Part shown: positions 1 through 57,502 of the stretch, in pieces
Numbering within the stretch: position 1 is the first letter of the stretch
Layout: every line of letters begins with the position of its first letter
Assembly: GCF_021917145.1 (NCBI RefSeq)
Contig: NC_061078.1
Location: 9,189,604 to 9,253,603 of the forward strand
DNA length: 64,000 nt
Direction: 5' to 3'
Source of the DNA: Hypomesus transpacificus
Lineage: Eukaryota > Chordata > Actinopteri > Osmeriformes > Osmeridae
Translations under genes and position numbers: made by a program
Notes under the pieces: model-generated
The model's database searches: none
Seen by the model: the letters and a program-made list of their open reading frames with translations, nothing else
What the model was told of the DNA's origin: nothing

Positions 1-2201
1 GGCAAAACAGCTCACTGAGCACCTCTCCTCAAATCAGCTCTATGAACCTCTCCAGTCTGGATTTCGTCTTCACCACAGCACTGAAACTGCATTAGCCAAG
101 GTAGTCAATGATCTATTATTAGCCTCTGACGCGGGCTTTAGCTCTGTCCTTGTTCTTCTAGACCTAAGTGCAGCTTTTGACACTGTAGATCATGAGATTC
201 TCCTGGAACGTATGGAGAACTATGTTGGGATTTCTGGTACTTCACTTCAGTGGTTCAGATCGTATCTATCTGATAGATCACAATATGTCCACTATGATGG
301 TTGCTCATCCAGGAGCTCCATTGTAAAATACGGAGTACCACAGGGTTCAGTTTTAGGCCCTCTGTTATTTGCACTCTATATGTTGCCTTTAGGAAACATA
401 ATTAGAAGTTTTGGGGTAGATTTTCACTGCTATGCAGATGATACTCAGCTATACATGTCTATAAAGCCGGGAGAATTTCCACATGCTATGGAAACCTGTG
501 TTTCCGGGTTGAAAACTTGGATGACTGCAAATTTCCTTCTTCTTAATTCGGATAAAACCGAGGTTCAAATTTTTGGTCCGAAAAAACACCGAAATAATTT
601 ATCCCATCTAACCTTAGACTTAGACGGCGTCAAAGTATCTCAAAGCCAGCTGGTAAAACATCTGGGAGTCACAATGGACCCAGACCTTTCATTTGAGTAC
701 CATATTAAGCAAATCACCAGAACAGCATTTTTCCATCTACGTAATATTGCCAAAATACGAAAATTCCTCTCAAAGGATGATGCTGAAAAACTAATACATG
801 CTTTTGTTACGTCCCGATTGGACTACTGCAATGTGTTGTTCTCTGGCCTCCCAATTACCTACCTAAAAAACTTACAGCGGGTGCAAAATGCTGCTGCTAG
901 ACTATTGACTAAAACTAGAAAGTTTGATCATATAACATCGACTCTTATCTCTTTACACTGGCTCCCTATCCAAGCCAGAGCTGATTTCAAAGTTCTACTA
1001 CTAACTTACAAATCTCTGCATGGATTGGCACCACTGTACCTCTCCGGTCTCCTTGCACCCTATTGCCCCGCAAGGTCTCTAAGATCTCAAAATGCCGGCT
1101 ATCTGGTAATACCCAAAGTTAAGAAAAAAACTGCTGGAGGTAGGGCGTTCTCATATAGAGCACCTCTTCTTTGGAACAAATTACCCATCTCAATTAAGGA
1201 AGCTGATACTGTCTCGACATTTAAAACTAGATTAAAAACGTTCTTGTTTAGTCAATTCTATGATTGTTAAAGGGAAGTATGTGTGTACTTTCTATGTAAA
1301 CCTGGGATGTGTGCTTGCCTATGTGTGTATCACATGTAACTTTTAAATTTTAATTATAGCTTATGTTCACATTGCCCAGCTAGATGTTACAAATAAAGTA
1401 AACCTGTTACTGTATATTGTTAGTATTATTATTATTATAGTTCCGTTGCTGTATATTGTTACTGTTATAGTTTTTATTACTAGTTGGAGACAACGGGGGA
1501 CTGGCTGTTTTCATCCTTATTCGTATAAGTATAACCTACTTTAGAGTTCTTTCCCCTGGAACAGATTTCATGTTCCAACTGAGGGGGGCTGTCGTTGTTT
1601 TGGTGTGTGGGGCTGCATCAAATACCCTTTTTGCTCTGTTAAATTGCTGCACTAGTCCACACTTGACCGGTGGGGATCTCATTCTATTTTGACTGTAACT
1701 GTTAGCTGCTCCTGGCATTCTCTAATCCCTGCTCTCCTCTCTGTCCCCCCCCCACACATTCCCTGTGGTGTGGGGGGTTTGAGCTGTCAGGACCTGCTTG
1801 GTCGTCGGTCTGCCAACGCTGAACCAGGTCGTCACCCGGAATCCAGTCTCCATGACGGCCAACAGCGAGTTTCCCGGTCCCATCCAACGTCTATAAAGCC
1901 GAACAATGGATTTTGGTGTTTCAAAACCCATTGACACTGTATGACTATGTTTAGCTTGTGTTCTGCTCCTCTCTCTTACCAACCGTCTCTGGAGGAGGGG
2001 ATCCCTCTCTGAATTGCTCCTCCCAAGGTTTCTTCCATTTTTTCTCCCGGTGGGAGTTTTTCTGGGAGTTTTTCCTTGTCTTCCTTGAGGGTTTAGGTTG
2101 GTTGAGGGGCAGTTCTATGGGCGCATGTGAAGCCCTCTGTGACATGCTTGCGTGTAAAAAGGGCTATACAAATAAATTTGATTTGATTTGATTTGATTTG
2201 A
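1..2201 (+). mobile_element. L2-type LINE, 5'-truncated by the window edge
   Basis: Non-LTR retrotransposon in sense orientation. A reverse-transcriptase frame is open from base 2 to 1270 and is followed by about 930 bp of 3' untranslated sequence. The 3' end shows the usual fish L2 signature: a gaagccctctgtgacat-like segment, then ggctatacaaataaa, then a short tandem (atttg) tail at about 2172-2201. The left end lies outside the window, so its true length is unknown. The frame has no stop or frameshift, which suggests a fairly young copy. No target-site duplication can be scored without the left end. Confidence 0.9.
2..1270 (+). CDS. L2 LINE ORF2 C-terminal half: reverse transcriptase
   Basis: A 422-residue open frame, partial at its 5' end because it enters from the window edge. 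It carries the thumb-side motifs of a non-LTR reverse transcriptase in order: [12 protein letters not shown] (catalytic motif A, about 150-190), [13 protein letters not shown] (motif B, about 335-372) and CYADDTQLY (motif C with the catalytic Asp pair, about 428-455). The C-terminal L2 signature regions follow ([46 protein letters not shown]). In a full element the upstream half would encode the endonuclease. This is element-borne and is not a host gene. The first ATG inside the window (212) is internal to the domain and should not be taken as the start. Confidence 0.9.
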
Positions 2202-6114: not shown

Positions 6115-7597
6115 ATGGCCACATTACAACGGTTGAATGGATTTCTCACCGACCGACTAGCCGCGGCTGCTATAGAGATATTTGGGGCAGTTGAGAAGAC
6201 GATGGTTGAGTATCAGGAACAAATTTCAGATTCTAAACAGGAGATAAGGCATCTACGAAAACTACTTGTGGATTTGGGTTACAAGTCAGACGGTAAGTGT
6301 GCTACAGTACAGTGGTTGCATTTTTTGCTTTTAAAGGATGGGAACTAAACGGTCCGCTTTTATCGCTGCCATGTGGCCGAATGAGACGAAACGAGAGGCA
6401 CGTGTTTGCATAATGTGTGAAATGCAACAGCAAACAGTATGCATATTCAGGAAAATGTTTAATGCTCTTCACTGTTATAGAACTGTCCATTTATTTCAAC
6501 CAGGCGTGCTTTCCATTGCCCCTGCCAGTGAAGACGTGTTTGTTTCTGAGCTAGAGGATGAGCAGGAGAGGGATGCCATTCCAATAGAGAAAGAAAGTGA
6601 TGAAGACTCCCCAATAGAACCAGACGCCACTCAACATGAAGAGAGCAAAGGTTTTTGTGGGGTCGACGGAGAAATGACATTGTTCAGCACAAAAAGAACC
6701 AGGGTCACAAGAAAACGTAAAGAGAAAACAGCTAGTTACCACACCGCTGCTGCCCAAGTTGAAACCAGTGAACTGACAATGAGGGAAAACCCAGGGGAGA
6801 AACGCCACAGCTGTAATGTGTGCATGAAATGCTTTAGCAGGCCGAGCCATTTGAAAGTCCATCAGAGAACACACACTGGTGAAAAACCGTATCAGTGTAA
6901 AGACTGTGGGAAGAGATTCAATCGCAAGTATTGCTTAGAGGTGCACATTCAGACTCACACATCTGATAAGCCGTTTTGCTGCCATGAATGTGGCAAATGC
7001 TTTCGTCGAAATGCAGATTTAATTCTGCACATGAGAGTGCACACTGGAGAGAAACCCTTTAAGTGCCCTTTTTGCGACTCATGCTTTAAGTCGGGAGGTC
7101 ACTTAGTTCGGCACCAGCTGAGCCATACAGGTGAAAAACCATATCAGTGCAATGACTGTGGCAAATGCTACAAGCGGAAAGAACACTTGACTGAGCATAT
7201 GAGGGTTCATACAGGGGAAAGACCTTACTGCTGCACAAAATGTGGAAAGTGTTACAGTCTGCGGGGAAACCTGAGAGTCCACATGAGGACCCATGTGGGG
7301 GAGAAACCATTCAAGTGTAGTTTGTGTGGCATTTGCACTGTATCAGCAAACCACCTCAAACGTCACATGCAGATTCACACAGGAGAGAAGCCTCACGTGT
7401 GCCCAGATTGTGGAAAGTCCTTCAATCGGAAAGAAAAAATGACAGAGCACATGAGAACTCACACTGGGGAAAAACCATATTGCTGTCAAGCTTGTGGCAA
7501 ATGCTTTAGGCTAAGGGCAACGATGAACATACACATGAGGACACACACATCCTCAGAAGATACTTTTCACTTTGAGGTGACTGAAGATGATGACTAA
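6115..7597 (+). CDS. C2H2 zinc-finger protein, nine fingers
   Basis: Two coding exons, 6115-6292 and 6504-7597 (phase 1 junction, GT at 6293, AG at 6502-6503), give 423 aa. Exon 1 encodes an alpha-helical leader beginning MATLQRLNGFLTDRLAAAAI, with heptad-like spacing up to RHLRKLL. From memory, comparable leaders precede many teleost zinc-finger arrays and are not KRAB domains. Exon 2 starts with an acidic Glu/Asp-rich linker and a basic KRTRVTRKRKEK patch that could be a nuclear signal. Nine tandem C2H2 fingers follow (about residues 160-412), mostly joined by TGEKP-type linkers, then a short acidic tail. It is expected to be a nuclear DNA-binding regulator with unknown target. Seven of the nine fingers have an extra Cys just before the conserved aromatic position, and finger 7 has Thr in place of that aromatic. 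I cannot assign an orthologue. Confidence 0.88.
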
Positions 7598-12600: not shown

Positions 12601-15600
12601 GACTGCATGATCACTAATACATCCTCCGACTTCAGGCTCTCCTATGATAAAGACGAGATGGTGGCAAGGGCCCTGAGGCTCATTGCTTTGTATGAAGAGG
12701 CTGGAATTAGCAAGGAACGCATTCTCATTAAACTGTCCTCAACATGGGAAGGCATCCAGGCTGGCAGGTGTGTCCCTAATATTTTCATTAATCATGAACT
12801 TTTGTCTTAAGTTTTTACACTTAAAATGTGTTTGAGATCCAACACTCATTCATTTAGATGTACAGTGCCCTCCAAAAGTATTGGAACAGTGAGGCCAATT
12901 CCTTTATTTTTGCTGTAGACTGAAAACATTTGGGCTTGACATCAAACGATGAATGTGAAACCAGAGATCAACGTTTCAGCTTTTATTTCCAGGTATTTAC
13001 ATCAGGATCTGATGCACAAATTAGAAAATATCACCTTTTTGTTCGAACCCACCCATTTGTCACGTGAGCAAAAGTATTGGAACATATGACTGACAGGTGT
13101 GTTTTGTTGCCCAGGTGTGTCCTATTACATACATTATTCAATCAATAAATACCACTGAATGTCTACACTCAGGTTCAGATTGGGTAAGATAGGTTTTGTC
13201 TATGCAGACTGTATTCAGAGGTGAAAACAACATGAAAACCGGAGCGCTGTCTTTGGGTGAAAAACAAGCAATTGTGAGTCTTAGAGAAGATGGAAAATCA
13301 ATCAGAGCCATTGCAGAAACATTGGCCATAGCCAGTACAACCATTTGGAATGTCCTGAAGAAGAAGAAAACTACTGGTGTACTAAGTAACAGACGTCGAA
13401 CAGGTAGACCAAGGAAAACATCAGCAGTTGATGACAGAAACATTGTGAGAGCTGTAAAGAAAGACCCTAAAACAACTGTTAGTGAGATCAGCAACAACCT
13501 CCAGATGGCAGGAGTGAAGGTATCACTATCTACTGTTCGCAGAAGACTTCATGAACAAAAGTACAAGGGCTACACCAGAAGATGCAAACCACTCATTAGC
13601 AAGAAGAATAGGAAGGCCAGGCTGGAATTTGCCAAAAAGTACAGAGATGAACCTCAAAAATTCTGGGACAAAGTTTTATGGACTGATGAGACAAAGATTA
13701 ACTTTTACCAAAGTGATGGAAAGGCTAAAGTTTGGAGAAAGAAAGGAACTGCTCATGATCCCAAACACACAAGCTCATCTGTGAAACACGGTGGAGGTAA
13801 TGTCATGGCTTGGGCTTGCATGGCTTCTTCTAGGACGGGCTCATTAATCTTCATTGAGGATGTAACACATGATGGCAGCAGCAAAATGAACTCGGAAGTC
13901 TACAGAAACATTTTGTCTGCCAATTTAAGGAAAGATGCAACCAAACTGATTGGCAGAGCCTTCATCATGCAGCAAGATAACGACCCAAAACACACTGCCA
14001 AAACAACAAAGGAGTTCATCAGGGGCAAGAAATGGAAGGTATTAGACTGGCCAAGTCAATCTCCAGACTTAAACCCTATAGAGCATGCATTTTACCTGCT
14101 TAAGAGGAGACTGAAGGGAGGAACCCCACAAAACAAACAACAACTGAAAGAGGCTGCAGTGAAAGCCTGGGAAAGCATCAAAAAGGAAGAATGCAAAAGT
14201 TTGGTGACGTCAATGGGTCACAGACTTGCTGCAGTTATTGAAAGCAAAGGATTTGCAACTAAATATTAAGTCTTATTCACTTAAATATGTTTTAAGTATA
14301 TCTGTTCCAATACTTTTGCTCACATGACAAATGGGTGGATTCAAACAAAATGTGATATTTTCTTAGTTGTGCATCAGATCCTGATGTAAATACCTGGAAA
14401 TAAAAGCTGAAACGTTGATCTCTGGTCTCACGTTCATTATTTGATGTCAAGCCCAAATGTTTTCAGTCTACAGCAAAAATAAAGGAATTCGCCTCACTGT
14501 TCCAATACTTTTGGAGGGCACTGTATTTTAAACTGGTTTATAATCCATAATATGCAATTGTTGTTATATGTATCATATCAAGTACGGTCTTCCTTTTTTT
14601 TCAAATTTTACTGACATTTTGCCTAAAGCAACAATATGAGTGAACATTAACCTTGTCAGTGTCCTTCAACTGCCCACCTGCATGTCTTTGCAGAGAGCTG
14701 GAGGAGAAGCATGGGGTCCACTGCAACATGACACTGCTGTTCTCCTTCGCCCAGGCGGTGGCCTGCGCCGAGGCTAAAGTCACACTGATCTCACCCTTCG
14801 TGGGCCGTATTCTGGACTGGCATAAAGAGAACTCAGATCGTAAGAGCTACGAGCCCCATGAGGACCCAGGTATAGGACTTCTATCTTGGTATAAATGGAT
14901 GTATTGTGAGTCAAATTCTTTGTCCATAGGCTCACTTTAACCATCAAAGTACAATCCTTTTTTTCTTTTTCTTACCTTTTCTACCTGTCTAGGAGTGGTC
15001 AGCGTGACCAAGATCTACAACTACTATAAAAAGTATGGTTACAGCACAGTAGTTATGGGTGCCTCCTTCAGGAACGTTGGTGAAGTGAAGGCCCTTGCTG
15101 GCTGTGACCTGCTGACCATCTCACCTAGCCTGCTGGGAGAACTGACCCAGGACCATGCTGTAGTAAAGCCAGCACTCACGCTGCAGAATGGTATGAAATC
15201 TATTCTTTTAAGGATGTGGAGGAGGCAGCATAAACATGCCCCACATGGTGCCCTGTATTATTAATTTCATACTTGTATTGAGTTGTATGTAGTGATACAG
15301 GGGTAAAGTTAGCATTGTACTTGTAGAAATGGAATGAGAAAAATTAGACCTACTCCAAACAAGACATTTGGTGTTCTTATTTGCTCTCCGAATGCAAAAG
15401 CTTTTAAAGGACAGGCTACAAGTCAAATTATGTTGATGAAAGTCCTGGTAACATTGTTTTGATGAAGTCCTGGTATTAATGTAGCTTTGTTATATGATAG
15501 TTGCAGTATTCAAAGCCAATTAAGGACATTGTTAGACAGGCCCCCTCAGACTTTCTGATGACAATCCTAAATTTGACTGTGCTGTAATCATTCAATTCAA

Positions 15601-50376: not shown

Positions 50377-53360
50377 TCAGTCTTCATCAGAGCAAGCCGG
50401 TGCGATGGAATAGACTAGGAACAGAAGGTCTGCCCTTACGGGCAACAGAGGGTGGCCTGGCTTCACAACTTCAAAGCCCATGTAGTGGAAAGTTCTGGTA
50501 AGAACGGCTGGAACGCAGACAAAATGGAGTGTCACTGCAGTTTCCACTACATTTGATTATGTATGTCATTATTTTGTAGCATGGGTAAAAGTGTTCAGTA
50601 AACCATTATTACTAGAGCCTGTTTACTGCACTAAATGTTGATAAAAATGCACTCACATCGATCCTCCCTGCTTTTGGAGAACCAAAGAAACACGTGGCTG
50701 ACACCCAACTCCTCCTCTGCAAACTCGAGAAGACTGGTTAGACTGAATAGAGAGAATAGGAAGGGATGAGTGAATCTTAGACTAATCTTCATTTTCATTC
50801 CAATCTACTTATAATGCTGTATTTCCTTCTTCAACAGAACTGATACCTAAATCATTATACAGTTTAAAGTTATTTAAATTGAGAGATGCCCTTTTACACT
50901 AAGTCTTAAAGAGGATCATAATTACATTCTGACTATAAAAATCATTTGCATGTCAAGTCCTTACCCTTCTTTACTACCCTCTGGGAGAGTGCCCTCTGGG
51001 ATTTCCAGGAAGAGGTTATCTGCAGTCACCACCGTCTTCCAGCATGCACTATGGCGCTCGCTCAGCCAGTAGTTAAAGTATAGGATGGGAAAGACTCCAT
51101 GCACAGAAGTCACCTGAGTCACCGTCAACCTACCATCCTGAAGAAAGTCACAATTTATTACCCACAAATATTATTCATTATTGGTAACATCCTTTTTATT
51201 ATGTTTTGTATTCTTTGTATTCAACTAGGCACGTGATTGGGATTGCCAATATGCTTAATCTTTTCAAAACAATGATGATTGATGATGATCATTTGATCAA
51301 TGTTCCACTTCAGAGACAAATCACATGAATCAATTATTCTGAACCAATTATCCTACTTGAGGTCTCTTATTTAGTTACTCTTCTCTTACGCAGTCACCCA
51401 TGTTTTACATTACAATTCCCGTGCTTCAAAGCTGTCTGAGGGTGCCAATCAAGTAATGGAATGCTAAACCTTGGATTTATATAATGTGGTTTAGTTTCTT
51501 TCTAGGCCAGATTATCTTGAATGCCAGATATAGTGACCCATATTCCCCAATACACATGCAAAACACTATTTGACTCAATTTTCATTGATGGACACAAGGA
51601 CTTCCAATTCTTATAAGCATTCATTTGTAATGGAATTGTATTTTAAGTTTTTAACATTTACCCAACCTATGGGTTTGCTTGACTACATTTTTTTATAAAA
51701 TGTTACACCAAGCTATAAAAAAGACACATGTAAAGAAATGTACATTGTGGAGGAGCTTTTGGAGAGGGGGATCCCTTCCAGTCCCTCGCCCACCCGGGAT
51801 CTTCAGCTGTGGGTGAGGGACATCAGGAGCACCACAGAGGCCCCGGGGCCTCTTCTTTGGGGAAGCAAATGTTGGCCTTAAGCAACAACGCCACAGGGCT
51901 GGAATGACAATAAAGAGTAGACATCAGGCCTAGAATAGATTTGGTCTCTGATCATAGATTGTAAATGGCAACAATAAGTGTTCCCTGCTTTTCATCTGTT
52001 AACATTTTACTGGTAAGAGGTCCAGTCATTGTTTGATTTATCCTTTTAACTGATTTTGACTTAGGACGATTTGTTTATGAAATATGTAAATATAAAAAAA
52101 AGCTTGATGTTTCTTTTCATGGTCTAAATTCTCTTCAATCAGAAACATCTTGGTCATTTTAAAGCTTTAACAGACAAGTGGATTTGAGTCAGGAATTAGG
52201 ACTTTCATGTATTCATTTAGACTTACCATAGGCTAAAAATGCATTATACCAACACCCAATGCAACAACATAGGTATAGTTGGTAATTATGCATTCAGGAG
52301 TAGATTCATTATTAGGAATGTCTGTGCAGCAGAATGTCAGCAACTTTCACCCACACACTGTAGCAATGGTTGGGAAACATGCATCCTAAGATTATACAAA
52401 ACTTCCAAGGAACGGAGTAGACCCAAATACTTTAATTAGTTCTAAAAAAAATTCATAATTTACATCGTGCAGAGTGAGTAGGGGATTTTTCCACTGTTGA
52501 ACAAGAGCGGTTTTGAAGTGTCTTATATAACGTCCTCTTGGGAGCATTCGCATAGAGCAGCGGTTGTGTAACAGAGCGAGATCGGGTGGCAGAGATTGTG
52601 CTGAGACATTAGTTCTCCTATGACCTTTCTCTGCGCAAGACTATAGTCTTATAATTATGTAGGGTAGATTTTCTTGAGAAACGTCATATTTTGGACAGAG
52701 TGAGTTTGAATGAATAAAGTGGTTGGTTTTTCTTAAAAATCGCATACATATGTCTTTATTGACATTGAGTCTGAGAGGTGTGTTTATGTTCTTTTATTAT
52801 TGTATAACTTCCTTCCGCCCTATCTCTTCTAGGCCTACTATGTTTGCAAATGTGAAGCCATTCAAATGCAAGAAATTGATTAGCTAAGTTCAAGTTCAAT
52901 GCATTCGACAAGGCTTTTAAAATAAGACCAATTTGTTTTTCATATTCCATTTTATATTCAATTTCTATGTGTCTTACAACATAATGTAGCCTATAATAAA
53001 CAACATAACATCAACCATGTGTTGAACATATGTAACAAATAGGCTATCCTTGTCTGGCACTTTTTGGAGCCTTATTGGAGCTATTATAGATAATATAGCC
53101 TATGCTAGCTGTAATAGCTAGCTATAATATATCATATAAGCTAGGCCGATATTACATTAGCATACCTCAACGTCCATTAGGCCAACCAATTAATCGTTTT
53201 AAAATGGTGTTGACAATATGAACTTTTGCAAATCAAACAGTTCTGGTGGCATTAATGGTGAATTCTACTATCAATAGGAAGTTTTGGTGATACCTGTTCA
53301 ACACGTCTAAGACATCCATTTGTGGTATGCAAAGTCTTACCTTTCCTCAGTAGCCAGCAT
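50377..53360 (-). CDS. oaz2: Ornithine decarboxylase antizyme, OAZ2 type, read through a +1 frameshift
   Basis: Five exons on the minus strand: 53341-53360, 51744-51898, 50965-51137, 50657-50742 and 50377-50507. ORF1 (31 codons) starts MLATEES, ends APGPLWCS and stops at TGA 51823-51825. Skipping one base continues in the +1 frame from Asp codon 51824-51822, giving about 187 aa (human OAZ2 is 189). The body shows LTVTQ, LFLEIPEGTLPEGSKEG, LLEFAEEELGVSHVFLWFSK, GFEVVKPGHPLLP and a C-terminal SDED. The SDED end and LTVTQ favour OAZ2 over OAZ1. Antizyme binds ornithine decarboxylase monomers, sends them to the 26S proteasome without ubiquitin and blocks polyamine uptake. Polyamines raise the frameshift, closing a feedback loop. 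All phases close only if the frameshift is applied. Exon 1 holds 20 coding bases and was placed by phase and donor; it is the least certain exon. Confidence 0.93.
51770..51821 (-). promoter_or_regulatory. Frameshift-stimulating RNA pseudoknot
   Basis: It starts right after TGA on the minus strand. Stem 1: GTCCCTC (51821-51815) pairs exactly with GAGGGAC (51787-51781), extended inward by ACCCAC against GTGGG-type bases (51814-51809 with about 51794-51789). The loop contains GATCCC (51801-51796), which can pair with GGGATC just downstream (51775-51770) as stem 2. This layout is the known vertebrate antizyme pseudoknot. Pairing was derived by eye, not by folding software. Confidence 0.85.
51821..51835 (-). 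promoter_or_regulatory. Programmed +1 ribosomal frameshift site
   Basis: On the minus strand the codons run CTG TGG TGC TCC TGA T. TCC-TGA-T is the conserved antizyme shift site, where the ribosome pauses at UGA with UCC in the P site and slips forward one base to read GAU. The upstream LWCS codons match the 5' stimulator of vertebrate antizymes. Confidence 0.95.
51899..53340 (-). other. oaz2 intron 1
   Basis: A 1.4 kb intron separating the 20-base first coding stretch from the frameshift exon. AT-rich, with TAGC words at 53100-53150 near its 5' end. No other feature recognised. Confidence 0.55.
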
Positions 53361-53909: not shown

Positions 53910-54672
53910 TCAATATCTTTGTCAAAATCGACCATACAAACTTCAAACTTCTTGCAAATTCTTCTACTACTGACTGACCAATTTGTCCGACCTTTGGTTT
54001 TGCGATAATGTTGAATATTGATTAACCCATAGCCAATACATCAATAAAAACATACATTTTCCGGTATTTAATCTGTATCATTGTCAAAAATGACCACAGA
54101 AACCACAAACTTGTTTCACATTCTTCTATTACTATCTGACCAAGTTGTCCAAACTTTGGTTTGGTGATAAAGTTGATCATTGATTAATCCATAGCCAACA
54201 AGTCAATAAAAACACCAATATTTCAGTATTTCGTCAATATCTATGTCAAAAATGAACATATAACCTTCAGACCTGTTTCCCATTCGTCTACTACCAGCTG
54301 ACCAATTTGTCCGGGCTTTGGTTTGTGATTAAGATGATTATTGATTAACCCATAGCCAATAAATCAATAAAAAGACACATTTTCCAGTATTTCATCAATA
54401 TCTTTGTCAAACATGAACATAAGAACTTCAGACTTGTTTCACATTCTTCTACTCCTAGTTGACCAAGTTGTCCAACCATTTGTTTGTTGAAGAAGTTGAT
54501 TATTGATTAACCCATAGCCTATAAGTCAATAAAAACCCCAATATTTCAGTGTTTCATCAATATCTTTGTCAAAAATGATCATTGAACCTTCAGACCTGTT
54601 TCATATTATTCTACTACTAGCTGACCAGGTTGTCCAAGCTTTGGTTTGGTGATAAAGACGATTATTGATTAA
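53910..54672. repeat. Tandem satellite, ~162-bp unit, about 4.7 copies
   Basis: Units begin at about 53910, 54072, 54234, 54395 and 54557 with a (T)CAATATCTTTGTCAAAAATGA-like word. Each continues through CATTCTTCTACTACTAGCTG, TTTGGTTTGGTGATAA and TTGATTAACCCATAGCC. Spacing is 161-162 bp. The last unit breaks off after GATTATTGATTAACC and runs straight into the minisatellite. Copies are visibly diverged (my estimate is 80-90% identity), so it is not recent. No coding frame. Confidence 0.9.
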
Positions 54673-56171
54673 CCTGGGAAGCACCTAGGCTGTTAAGCAC
54701 CTGGGAAGCACCTAGGAAGCACCTGGGAAGCACCTGGGAAGCACCTGGGAAGCAGCCTGGAAGCATCTAGGCTGTTAAGCACCTAAGAAGCACCTGGGAA
54801 GCACCTGGGAAGCACCTAGGCTGTTAAGTACCTTGGAAGCACCTTTGAAGCACCTAGGCTGTTAAGCCCCTGGGAAGCACCTGGGATCACCTAGGCTGTT
54901 AAGCCCCTGTTAAGCTCCTGGGAAGCATCTGAGAAACACATGGGAAGCACCTGGGAAGCACCTGGGAAGCATATGGGCAGCACCTTGGCTGTTAAGCTCC
55001 TGGGAAGCACCTGGGAAGCACCTTAGCTGTTAAGGGCCTGGGAAGCACCTGGGAAGCAGCTGGGAAGCAGCTGGGAAGCAGCTTGGAAGTACCTAGGCTC
55101 TTAAACACCTGGGAAGCACCTGGGAAGCACCTAGGCTCGGAAGCACGTGGGAAGCACATAGGCTTTTAAGCACCTGGGAAGCACCTGGGAAGCACCTAGG
55201 CTGTTAAGCACCTAGGAAGCACCTGGGAGGCACCTAGGCTGTTAAGCACCTGGGAAGCACCTAGGCTGTTAAGCACCTGGGAAGCACCTAGGCTGTTAAG
55301 CACCTAGGAAGCACCTGGGAGGCACCTAGGCTGTTAAGCACCTGGGAAGCACCTGGGAGGCACCTAGGCTGTTAAGCACCTGGGAAGCACCTGGGAGGCA
55401 CCTAGGCTGTTAAGCACCTGGGAAGCACCTGGGAAGCTCATGGGAAGCACCTGGGATCACCTAGGCTGTTAAGCCCCTGGGAAGCACCTGGGAAGCACTT
55501 AGGCTGGGAAGCAGCTGGGAAGCACCTGGGAAGCACCTAGGCTGTTAAGCACCTGGGAAGCACCCGTGAAGCACCTGGGAAGCACCTGGGAAGCACATGG
55601 TAAGCACCTAGATTGTTAAGCTCCTTTGAAGCACCTGGGAAACACCTGGGAAGCATCTAGGCTGTTAAGCACCTGGGAAGCACATGGGAAGCACATGGGA
55701 AGCACCTAAGCTGTTAAGCACCTGGGAAGCACCTGGGAAGCACCTGGGAAGCCCCTGGGAAGCCCCTGGGAAGCACATGGTAAGCACCTAGATTGTTAAG
55801 CTCCTTTGAAGCACCTGGGAAACACCTGGGAAGCACCTAGGCTGTTAAGCACCTGGGAAGCACATGGGAAGCACATGGGAAGCACATGGGAAGCACCTAA
55901 GCTGTTAAGCACCTGGGAAGCACCTGGGAAGCCCCTGGGAAGCCCCTGGGAAGCCCCTGGGAAGCCCCTGCGAAGCACCTGGGAAGCACCTGGGAAGCAC
56001 CTGGGAAGCACATAAGCTGTTAGCCACCTGGGAAGCACCTGGGAAGCACCTGGGAAGCACCTGGGAAGCACCTGGGAAGCACCTGGGAAGCACATGGGCT
56101 ATTAAGCCCCCGGGAAGCACCTAGGCTGGGAAGCACCTGGGAAGCACCTGGGAAGCACTTGGGAAGCACTT
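54673..56171. repeat. Minisatellite, 11-bp GGGAAGCACCT unit with 16-bp spacer variants
   Basis: About 1.5 kb built from the 11-mer GGGAAGCACCT interspersed with a 16-bp variant, AGGCTGTTAAGCACCT. A larger duplication is visible: the block from about 55591 repeats at an offset of exactly 180 bp (55771), including the rare word GGTAAGCACCTAGATTG. Another short higher-order unit with GGGAGGCACCTAGGC repeats between 55205 and 55430. Because 11 is not a multiple of 3, tight runs stay open in several frames and give artificial repeat peptides. Confidence 0.95.
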
Positions 56172-56250
56172 GAACCCTATTAGGTTTGAAAAACCATCAG
56201 TAAAAAAGTAATTTAATTTATTGATACAAAGATATTTTGGCAATGTAGAT

Positions 56251-57502
56251 ATTTACATTGCCACTGCTACGCTGACGACACGCAGCTGTACCTGTCATTC
56301 CCTCCGACCGATCCGGGGATCTCAGCTAGGATTGAGGCCTGCCTCGCAGACATCTCCGCCTGGATGACTGAGCACCACCTCCAGCTGAACCTTGCCAAAA
56401 CGGAACTTCTCATCATCCCGGCCAAACCCTCCATCTCCCATGACTTCTCAATCACCCTGGGATCTGCGACGGTGACCCCCTCATCCTCTGCCAGGAACCT
56501 TGGGGTTACCATGGATGACGAGCTCTCCCTCACGGCCCACATTGCTGCGGTCTCCCGGTCGTGTAGATTCACCCTCTACAACATCCGGAAGATCAGGAGA
56601 TACCTGTCTGAGCACTCCACCCAGCTGCTTGTCCAAGCACTTGTCCTCTCCAAGTTGGACTACTGCAACTCGCTGCTCGCCGGTCTCCCATCATGCGCAA
56701 CCCGCCCTCTTCAGAGGATTCAGAACGCAGCGGCCCGTCTGGTCTACAATCTACCCAGACGCTCCCACGTTACCCCGCTCCTCATCTCCCTCCACTGGCT
56801 ACCCATAACGGCCCGCATCAGATTCAAGACCCTGGTTCTGACCTTCCGAGCAGTGAACGGGACTGCGCCCGACTACATCAAGTCTCTCCTGCAGCCTTAC
56901 ACCCCCACCCGCCACCTACGGTCTTCTTCAGACAACCGCCTGGTGGTCCCACCTCTCAAGACCGCCCGGTCCCAGCACAAGCTCTTCTCCTGCCTGGCAC
57001 CCCAGTGGTGGAATCAACTCCCCACCTCCATCAGAGACACGGACTGTCTCTCCACCTTCAAGAGAAGGCTCAAGACACACTTGTTCCGGGAGTACAATGG
57101 TACTTAGGAATGGTTTGCTGAACCCAACGCTAGTTTCCTCAAGGTTCACAATGACTCTTGCTTAGACTGTTGCTCTTGTTGGTTAGTGGTAGCTGATTTA
57201 AACTGTTGTATTCTTTTTTAGTTAATCCTATTTTTATTGCTTTCCTACAGGTACACCTGCACTTAGAGATTAATGTTGTGTAATTTTTAACTTGTTTAAC
57301 TACATGCTCTTATGGTTTCTTCCCTTTAGCACTATTTTTTGGTTGTTCACAATATGTACTTCTTGTTTTTCACTACCCGCAATGCTGTGGGGCTATCTTG
57401 TTGTTATTATCAGTGACCTATGCAGTTTGTGAAGCTCTCTCTTGGAAGTCGCTTTGGATAAAAGCGTCTGCTAAATGAATACATGTAAATGTAAATTTAC
57501 AT
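56251..57502 (+). mobile_element. L2 LINE, 5'-truncated, with possible target duplication
   Basis: A sense-strand L2 insertion starting inside reverse transcriptase motif C and running to a 3' tail with GGATAAAAGCGTCTGCTAAA and an ATGTAAAT repeat. The octamer ATTTACAT occurs at both borders (56251-56258 and 57495-57502). It may be the target duplication, although the tail repeat has similar sequence. It lies 80 bp downstream of the minisatellite. Confidence 0.85.
56261..57107 (+). pseudogene. L2 ORF2 C-terminal fragment
   Basis: The frame is open from [10 protein letters not shown] at the left border (56264 onward) to the stop at 57107 with no interruption. It contains the same ordered C-terminal blocks as the LINE at the window start (LSKLDYCNSLLAGLP, LHWLPITAR, FSCLAPQWWNQLP, FKRRLKTHLF), but the DNA is much more GC-rich and clearly from a different L2 subfamily. 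It lacks the endonuclease and most of the polymerase, so it cannot act alone. Confidence 0.88.

Follow-up and report, generated by a model that had tools for sequence, protein, structure and literature searches.

The 64,000-nucleotide stretch of Hypomesus transpacificus DNA analyzed here (hereafter, the window; C19:9189604-9253603 of a 437-Mb genome) carries on its minus strand what is, with very high probability, an intact, protein-coding gene for an OAZ2-type ornithine decarboxylase (ODC) antizyme that is read by programmed +1 ribosomal frameshifting. This assignment was based on directly observed properties: the sequence elements of the recoding cassette, the match to an RNA family, the open frames, the protein family, and the genomic neighborhood.

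Gene model and recoding cassette

The antizyme gene comprises five exons, with GT-AG borders in 4/4 introns (Table 1). Its first open reading frame (ORF1), which consists of exon 1 and part of exon 2, ends after 31 codons in L-W-C-S-TGA (TGA at 51825-51823), as the initial annotation had described for the site TCC TGA T (51828-51822), and exons 3-5 carry on the antizyme frame once one base is skipped. When T51825 is skipped, MLATEESPVALLLKANICFPKEEAPGPLWCS is joined to DVPHPQLKIPGGRG...SDED in a 187-residue antizyme, stop-free over its 187 codons and five exons. The spliced product matches Pfam ODC_AZ (PF02100; E 4.9e-21, 75.2 bits vs. a cut-off of 24.2), and a comparison with the PDB gave human OAZ1 from solved complexes with ODC (chain 5bwa_B) at E 8.5e-42, with antizymes making up 4/4 of the matches listed.

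The initial annotation had also placed the whole recoding cassette in the 155-bp second exon of an oaz2-type gene, which is borne out by the Pfam match and by a match to Rfam family RF00381 (antizyme frameshift stimulation element). Both RF00381 stems are present, the score exceeds the gathering cut-off (40 bits; E-value for 64 kb x 4227 Rfam families), and this was the sole Rfam match above its family cut-off within the window; a SNORD87 match (21.9 bits vs. a cut-off of 50) was discarded as weak. The sequence UCC_UGA is the usual antizyme shift site (PMC5009743; here and below, papers are cited for parts of their text). The 7-bp stem previously placed directly after the stop is indeed perfect (51821-51815 paired with 51787-51781), but it starts one base after the TGA, and it is only the lower part of stem 1, which extends past an A51814.C51788 mismatch to a further 5 bp (51813-51809 with 51793-51789), i.e., 7+5 bp in full. 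The loop word GATCCC (51801-51796) has the exact GGGATC partner (51775-51770) that had been noted, giving a 6-bp stem 2 and an H-type pseudoknot.

Folding analyses gave a graded picture of the region 51830-51765, which had been singled out for folding. Stem 1 alone (51821-51781) is stable (-23.2 kcal/mol, z -3.14, 0/200 shuffles as good), whereas the whole 66-nt stretch folds only mildly better than its shuffles (z -1.71, 18/200 as good), and the same holds for the entire exon 2 (z -1.14, 24/200 as good). Without the pseudoknot option, part of AGGGATCCCCCT pairs with itself, competing with stem 2.

Pattern searches were run over the whole genome. A 30-nt core pattern, allowing up to 3 mismatches, was found at two places, both of them antizyme genes (this gene and a paralog on C22, see below), and the reversed control gave 0. 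Because the RF00381 match reaches 70.0 bits and the core pattern occurs genome-wide only in antizyme genes, the cassette match is not due to chance. A looser pattern (up to 2 mismatches) yielded 243 + 247 matches compared to 112 + 126 in the reversed control; this excess is partly a tandem array on C195, and the matches followed were those at this locus and on C22. Compared to the RF00381 consensus, the window gene shares the full-length match, the shift context, stem 1 with its internal mismatch, and stem 2, whereas it is 3 bases shorter from stem 1 to the stem 2 partner and has U-A in place of C-G at the outermost consensus stem 1 pair, a paired change. The C22 paralog has A and A in the columns of this outermost pair, which is therefore broken there, and the shift site, stem 1 core, and stem 2 are identical in the two genes. 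Relatives were also sought among viral_contigs with the pattern TGATGNCCCTCACCCAC, which returned 10 stretches with RF00381 in 0/10, and a protein query confirmed 0/8, so that these were regarded as chance matches. A text search for the cassette letters in published text matched only unrelated plant literature.

Table 1 Coordinates of the antizyme gene and its recoding elements in the window (position 1 is the first nucleotide of the window).
Feature	Position	Strand	Details
+1 shift site TCC TGA T	51822..51828	-	skipped base T51825
RF00381 antizyme frameshift stimulation element	51770..51825	-	70.0 bits, E 5.6e-14, model 1-59 of 59
Stem 1, 5' arm	51809..51821	-	7 + 5 nt, A51814 unpaired
Stem 1, 3' arm	51781..51793	-	5 + 7 nt, C51788 unpaired
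Stem 2, 5' arm GATCCC	51796..51801	-	in stem 1 loop; word also in C22 paralog and RF00381 consensus
Stem 2, 3' arm GGGATC	51770..51775	-	identical in 3/3 alignment rows
5' stimulator region	51829..51848	-	20 nt preceding shift codon
18-nt perfect palindrome AGAGGCCCCGGGGCCTCT	51836..51853	-	candidate 7-bp 5' hairpin; ends 7 nt before TCC codon
Exon 1, coding part	53341..53360	-	ATG CTG GCT ACT GAG GAA AG; ATG at 53360; phase 2 at end; donor gtaaga after 53341
Exon 2	51744..51898	-	155 bp; acceptor ...cattccag, donor AAT/gtacat; ORF1 end, shift site, and stimulators
Exon 3	50965..51137	-	173 bp, antizyme frame
Exon 4	50657..50742	-	86 bp
Exon 5, coding part	50377..50507	-	ends ..SDED + stop

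Taken together with what is known of antizymes, these features predict +1 shifting in this animal, polyamine control, and an effect of the protein on ODC. Ribosomes would translate the 31-codon ORF1 until UCC occupies the P site and UGA the A site, where some of them would skip one base and proceed in the +1 frame, aided by the conserved 5' sequence and the 3' pseudoknot. The 187-residue product would bind and inhibit ODC, and polyamines, by analogy, would raise the shifted share, closing a negative feedback loop. The observation is already explained by a known mechanism, the textbook example of a ribosome that senses a metabolite. Standard pipelines overlook the frameshift, so that antizyme genes have to be annotated by experts (PMC2375905), and the window gene offers a clean case for annotation by hand.

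Antizyme type and predicted action on ODC

The genome was searched for further antizyme genes at the RNA and protein levels. Scoring the best 67 of 81,781 candidates, the RF00381 search gave two matches, one in the window and one on C22, and the PF02100 search gave four matches in two genes, two of them above the cut-off. The window protein had seven matches (own locus: 4; C22: 2; C13: 1), of which the one on C13 (E 0.889; bases 1-2000 of 3147 inspected by eye) was taken as chance, and the C22 protein had five (C22: 4; window: 1). When an approximate human OAZ2 sequence was used as the query, seven matches were found (window: 4; C22: 3), with no better OAZ2 copy among them. The genome therefore holds at least two antizyme genes, the window gene and an OAZ1-type gene on C22; this is a lower bound because only the best candidates were scored. 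Zebrafish has more antizymes (PMC5009743), and one OAZ1 plus one diverged OAZ2, as found here, would be a simpler setting.

The C22 gene (L037; C22:1764730-1762683, minus strand) matches RF00381 with 79.3 bits, shows 60.9% identity to human OAZ1, and has the ORF1 tail LSLHCSSTLGPVPLSCS. This tail ends in PLSCS, with TCG two codons before the shift codon, a position where UGG is reportedly strongly conserved. The window gene has the same domain and the same kind of pseudoknot as OAZ1 (human: 5bwa, 4zgy; C22), and its exons 3 and 4 have the same lengths as those of the C22 gene (173 and 86 nt). Identity of the window protein is slightly higher to the approximate human OAZ2 sequence (81/156, 51.9%) than to human OAZ1 (74/154, 48.1%), and it is 46.8% to the C22 protein. 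With this human OAZ2 sequence, the window protein shares GRDP and LTVTQ in ORF2 as well as the SDED terminus, at an overall identity of just 51.9%. The window ORF1 also ends in PGPLWCS, as does the short ORF1 of human OAZ2.

With respect to genomic position, rbpms2-like exons (L048, spotted by eye) lie about 22 kb 5' of the antizyme ATG, with RBPMS2 (2m9k, 46.9 bits) as their best PDB match, compared to 44.6 bits for RBPMS, and CLN6 (Pfam match) is located farther out beyond them. The genes given for a single 177-kb region in cattle include PLEKHO2, PIF1, RBPMS2, OAZ2, ZNF609, and TRIP4 (PMC7901938). Because of the rbpms2-like neighbor and this RBPMS2/OAZ2 region of cattle, the window gene is assigned to OAZ2 on the basis of its position, although its sequence is much changed. 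The oaz2 assignment is thus supported by the rbpms2 neighbor and by the slightly better match to the approximate human OAZ2 sequence than to human OAZ1.

At the protein level, seven of the eight AZ1 residues listed for ODC inhibition (PMC6995573) are identical in the window protein, and the eighth is changed by D154E, E being given at this site for both AZ2 and AZ3 in the same source. All four AZ1 residues for ODC degradation differ (S120Y, N129C, G137D, G145E). AZ2 is said to inhibit ODC without promoting its degradation (PMC6995573), and the changed degradation residues would fit such an AZ2-like action. Changes at 3/4 of these residues are likewise seen in the OAZ1-type gene on C22, so that the AZ2-like interpretation is only tentative.

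Alternative readings and splicing

Several observations tell against an intact OAZ2-type gene read by frameshifting. The exon-2 donor is weak as judged by eye, and potential shift-free routes to the antizyme frame exist: the cryptic exon-2 acceptors 51876, 51849, and 51774 lead to 180, 171, and 146 residues, respectively, ending in SDED, and one of the seven GTs in exon 2 (51894), used as a donor, gives 137 residues with an exon 2 of 4 nt. OAZ2 has been called the more conserved antizyme (PMC5009743), whereas the window protein is diverged, and the RBPMS2 name is ahead of RBPMS by 2.3 bits only. Among ten further ODC-interface residues (PMC4595762), three are identical (R188, H202, Y216). E219 is Ala in the window protein, and because this change weakened AZ1 binding (PMC4595762), ODC binding may be weaker here.

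Alternatively, the window gene could correspond by orthology to AZR, the antizyme of zebrafish brain and retina, and not to OAZ2 proper, which we regard as unlikely but not negligible. The window protein is strongly diverged, and at positions -8 to -5 relative to the shift it has A-P-G-P. The zebrafish brain/retina form has the same four residues, whereas V-P-G-P is found in mammalian AZ2 and G-P-G-P in mammalian AZ1 and in the short form of zebrafish (PMC5009743). However, the comparison with AZR extends over these four residues only, and a single residue is little evidence. AZR has been reported from zebrafish and other minnows and is said to be lacking in many other fish and to have weaker signals (PMC5009743), whereas the window cassette scores 70 bits. 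It may also be that AZR is a sister copy of OAZ2.

Splicing was analyzed as a second route to the antizyme, by use of an intron-1 acceptor inside exon 2 or by cutting exon 2 to 4 nt. With the modelled splice sites, ORF1 stops at the shift site, and ORF2 lies in the +1 frame and lacks a start codon ahead of the domain: a TAA that shares bases with the ATG of ORF1 closes its frame, and the first ATG in this frame is in exon 5 (zero-based position 460 of the 565-nt coding sequence). The initial annotation had concluded that the exons join in phase only if one base is skipped, which holds for these sites but is too strong in general, because the cryptic sites in exon 2 (three acceptors and one donor) restore the frame without a shift. 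Starting from the modelled first exon, splice sites were varied one at a time. A shift-free, ATG-led antizyme frame resulted from 3/80 AGs as intron-1 acceptors and from none of the other 77, and there was none from the 66 other exon-1 donors, the 42 other exon-3 acceptors, or the remaining six of the seven exon-2 GTs. Retention of intron 1 provided no ATG in the ORF2 frame, and skipping of exon 2 produced no antizyme.

The open frames from the three acceptors and the one donor, and an ORF2 frame that is open across the whole of exon 2, are thus what a splicing route has in its favor. The share of pyrimidines preceding the AG is nevertheless higher at the regular acceptor (0.76) than at the three cryptic acceptors (0.65, 0.59, and 0.24), and a 4-nt exon is unlikely. 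Splicing would also leave the complete conserved recoding cassette unexplained, and exon 2 of the C22 gene has the same ORF1-TGA-pseudoknot layout. Production of the antizyme by alternative splicing is therefore very improbable, and frameshifting remains the preferred reading. It is equally improbable that the gene is a pseudogene or decaying duplicate with a relic cassette and a protein that no longer works: its low identity to human OAZ1 and to the approximate human OAZ2 sequence, its weak exon-2 donor, and the 7/10 changed interface residues would fit, but the frame has no stop over 187 codons and five exons, all introns are GT-AG, the inhibition residues are conserved at 7/8 positions, the pseudoknot scores far above its cut-off, and the genome search with the human OAZ2 sequence yielded no better copy.

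A palindrome at the 5' stimulator and other features of the window

Upstream of the shift codon, GCCTCTGT.GTGCTCC is common to the 5' stimulator regions of the window gene and the C22 paralog. The promoting signals of OAZ1 sit within 20 nt 5' of its shift site (PMC7297798). The one unusual feature of the window gene is the 18-nt perfect palindrome at this place, which the C22 paralog lacks. If TA runs are set aside, the window contains no other palindrome of at least 18 nt (mean 0.3 in 20 simulated sequences). Its 5' half is the special part because most of the 3' half falls in the stimulator region, and a chance match of the 5' half at that spot has p ~6e-6 (from the base frequencies in the 5' part of the exon; computed post hoc). 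In folding, the palindrome gives a hairpin of 7 bp (-11.5 kcal/mol, z -1.91, 11/200 shuffles as good) that persists in the whole-exon fold.

It is conceivable, although we consider it quite doubtful, that the palindrome is a fourth part of the cassette, a 7-bp hairpin covering the 5' stimulator and acting on +1 shifting. Once UCC has reached the P site, the foot of the hairpin would sit inside the ribosome. A hairpin re-forming behind a ribosome halted at the stop would pull the mRNA 5'-ward and favor +1 slippage; alternatively, a hairpin masking the stimulator would tune it down. In synthetic tests with a coronavirus sequence, a 5' hairpin lowers -1 shifting and can raise +1 shifting, and the known antizyme 5' element is thought to work without pairing within the mRNA (PMC5009743). 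No 5' structural element was found described for vertebrate antizymes in parts of this review (PMC5009743) or in a limited literature search. If active, the hairpin would provide a testable structural 5' element for the stimulator.

In addition to the antizyme gene, the window contains several repeats and coding fragments. Upstream of antizyme exon 1 are a 162-bp tandem repeat (4.7 copies, 53910-54674) and a minisatellite with an 11-bp period (~123 copies, 54672-56169). Fragments of reverse transcriptase (RVT_1) were found at 2-1267 (+) and 56217-57104 (+), the second below the curated cut-off. An open Tc1-like transposase frame of 358 residues is located at 13193-14266 (+), and an equally long frame that lies beyond the window (L051, 6373-7446, minus strand) is very similar to it (by eye, 160 residues compared). 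An array of C2H2 zinc fingers occupies 6335-7594 (+).

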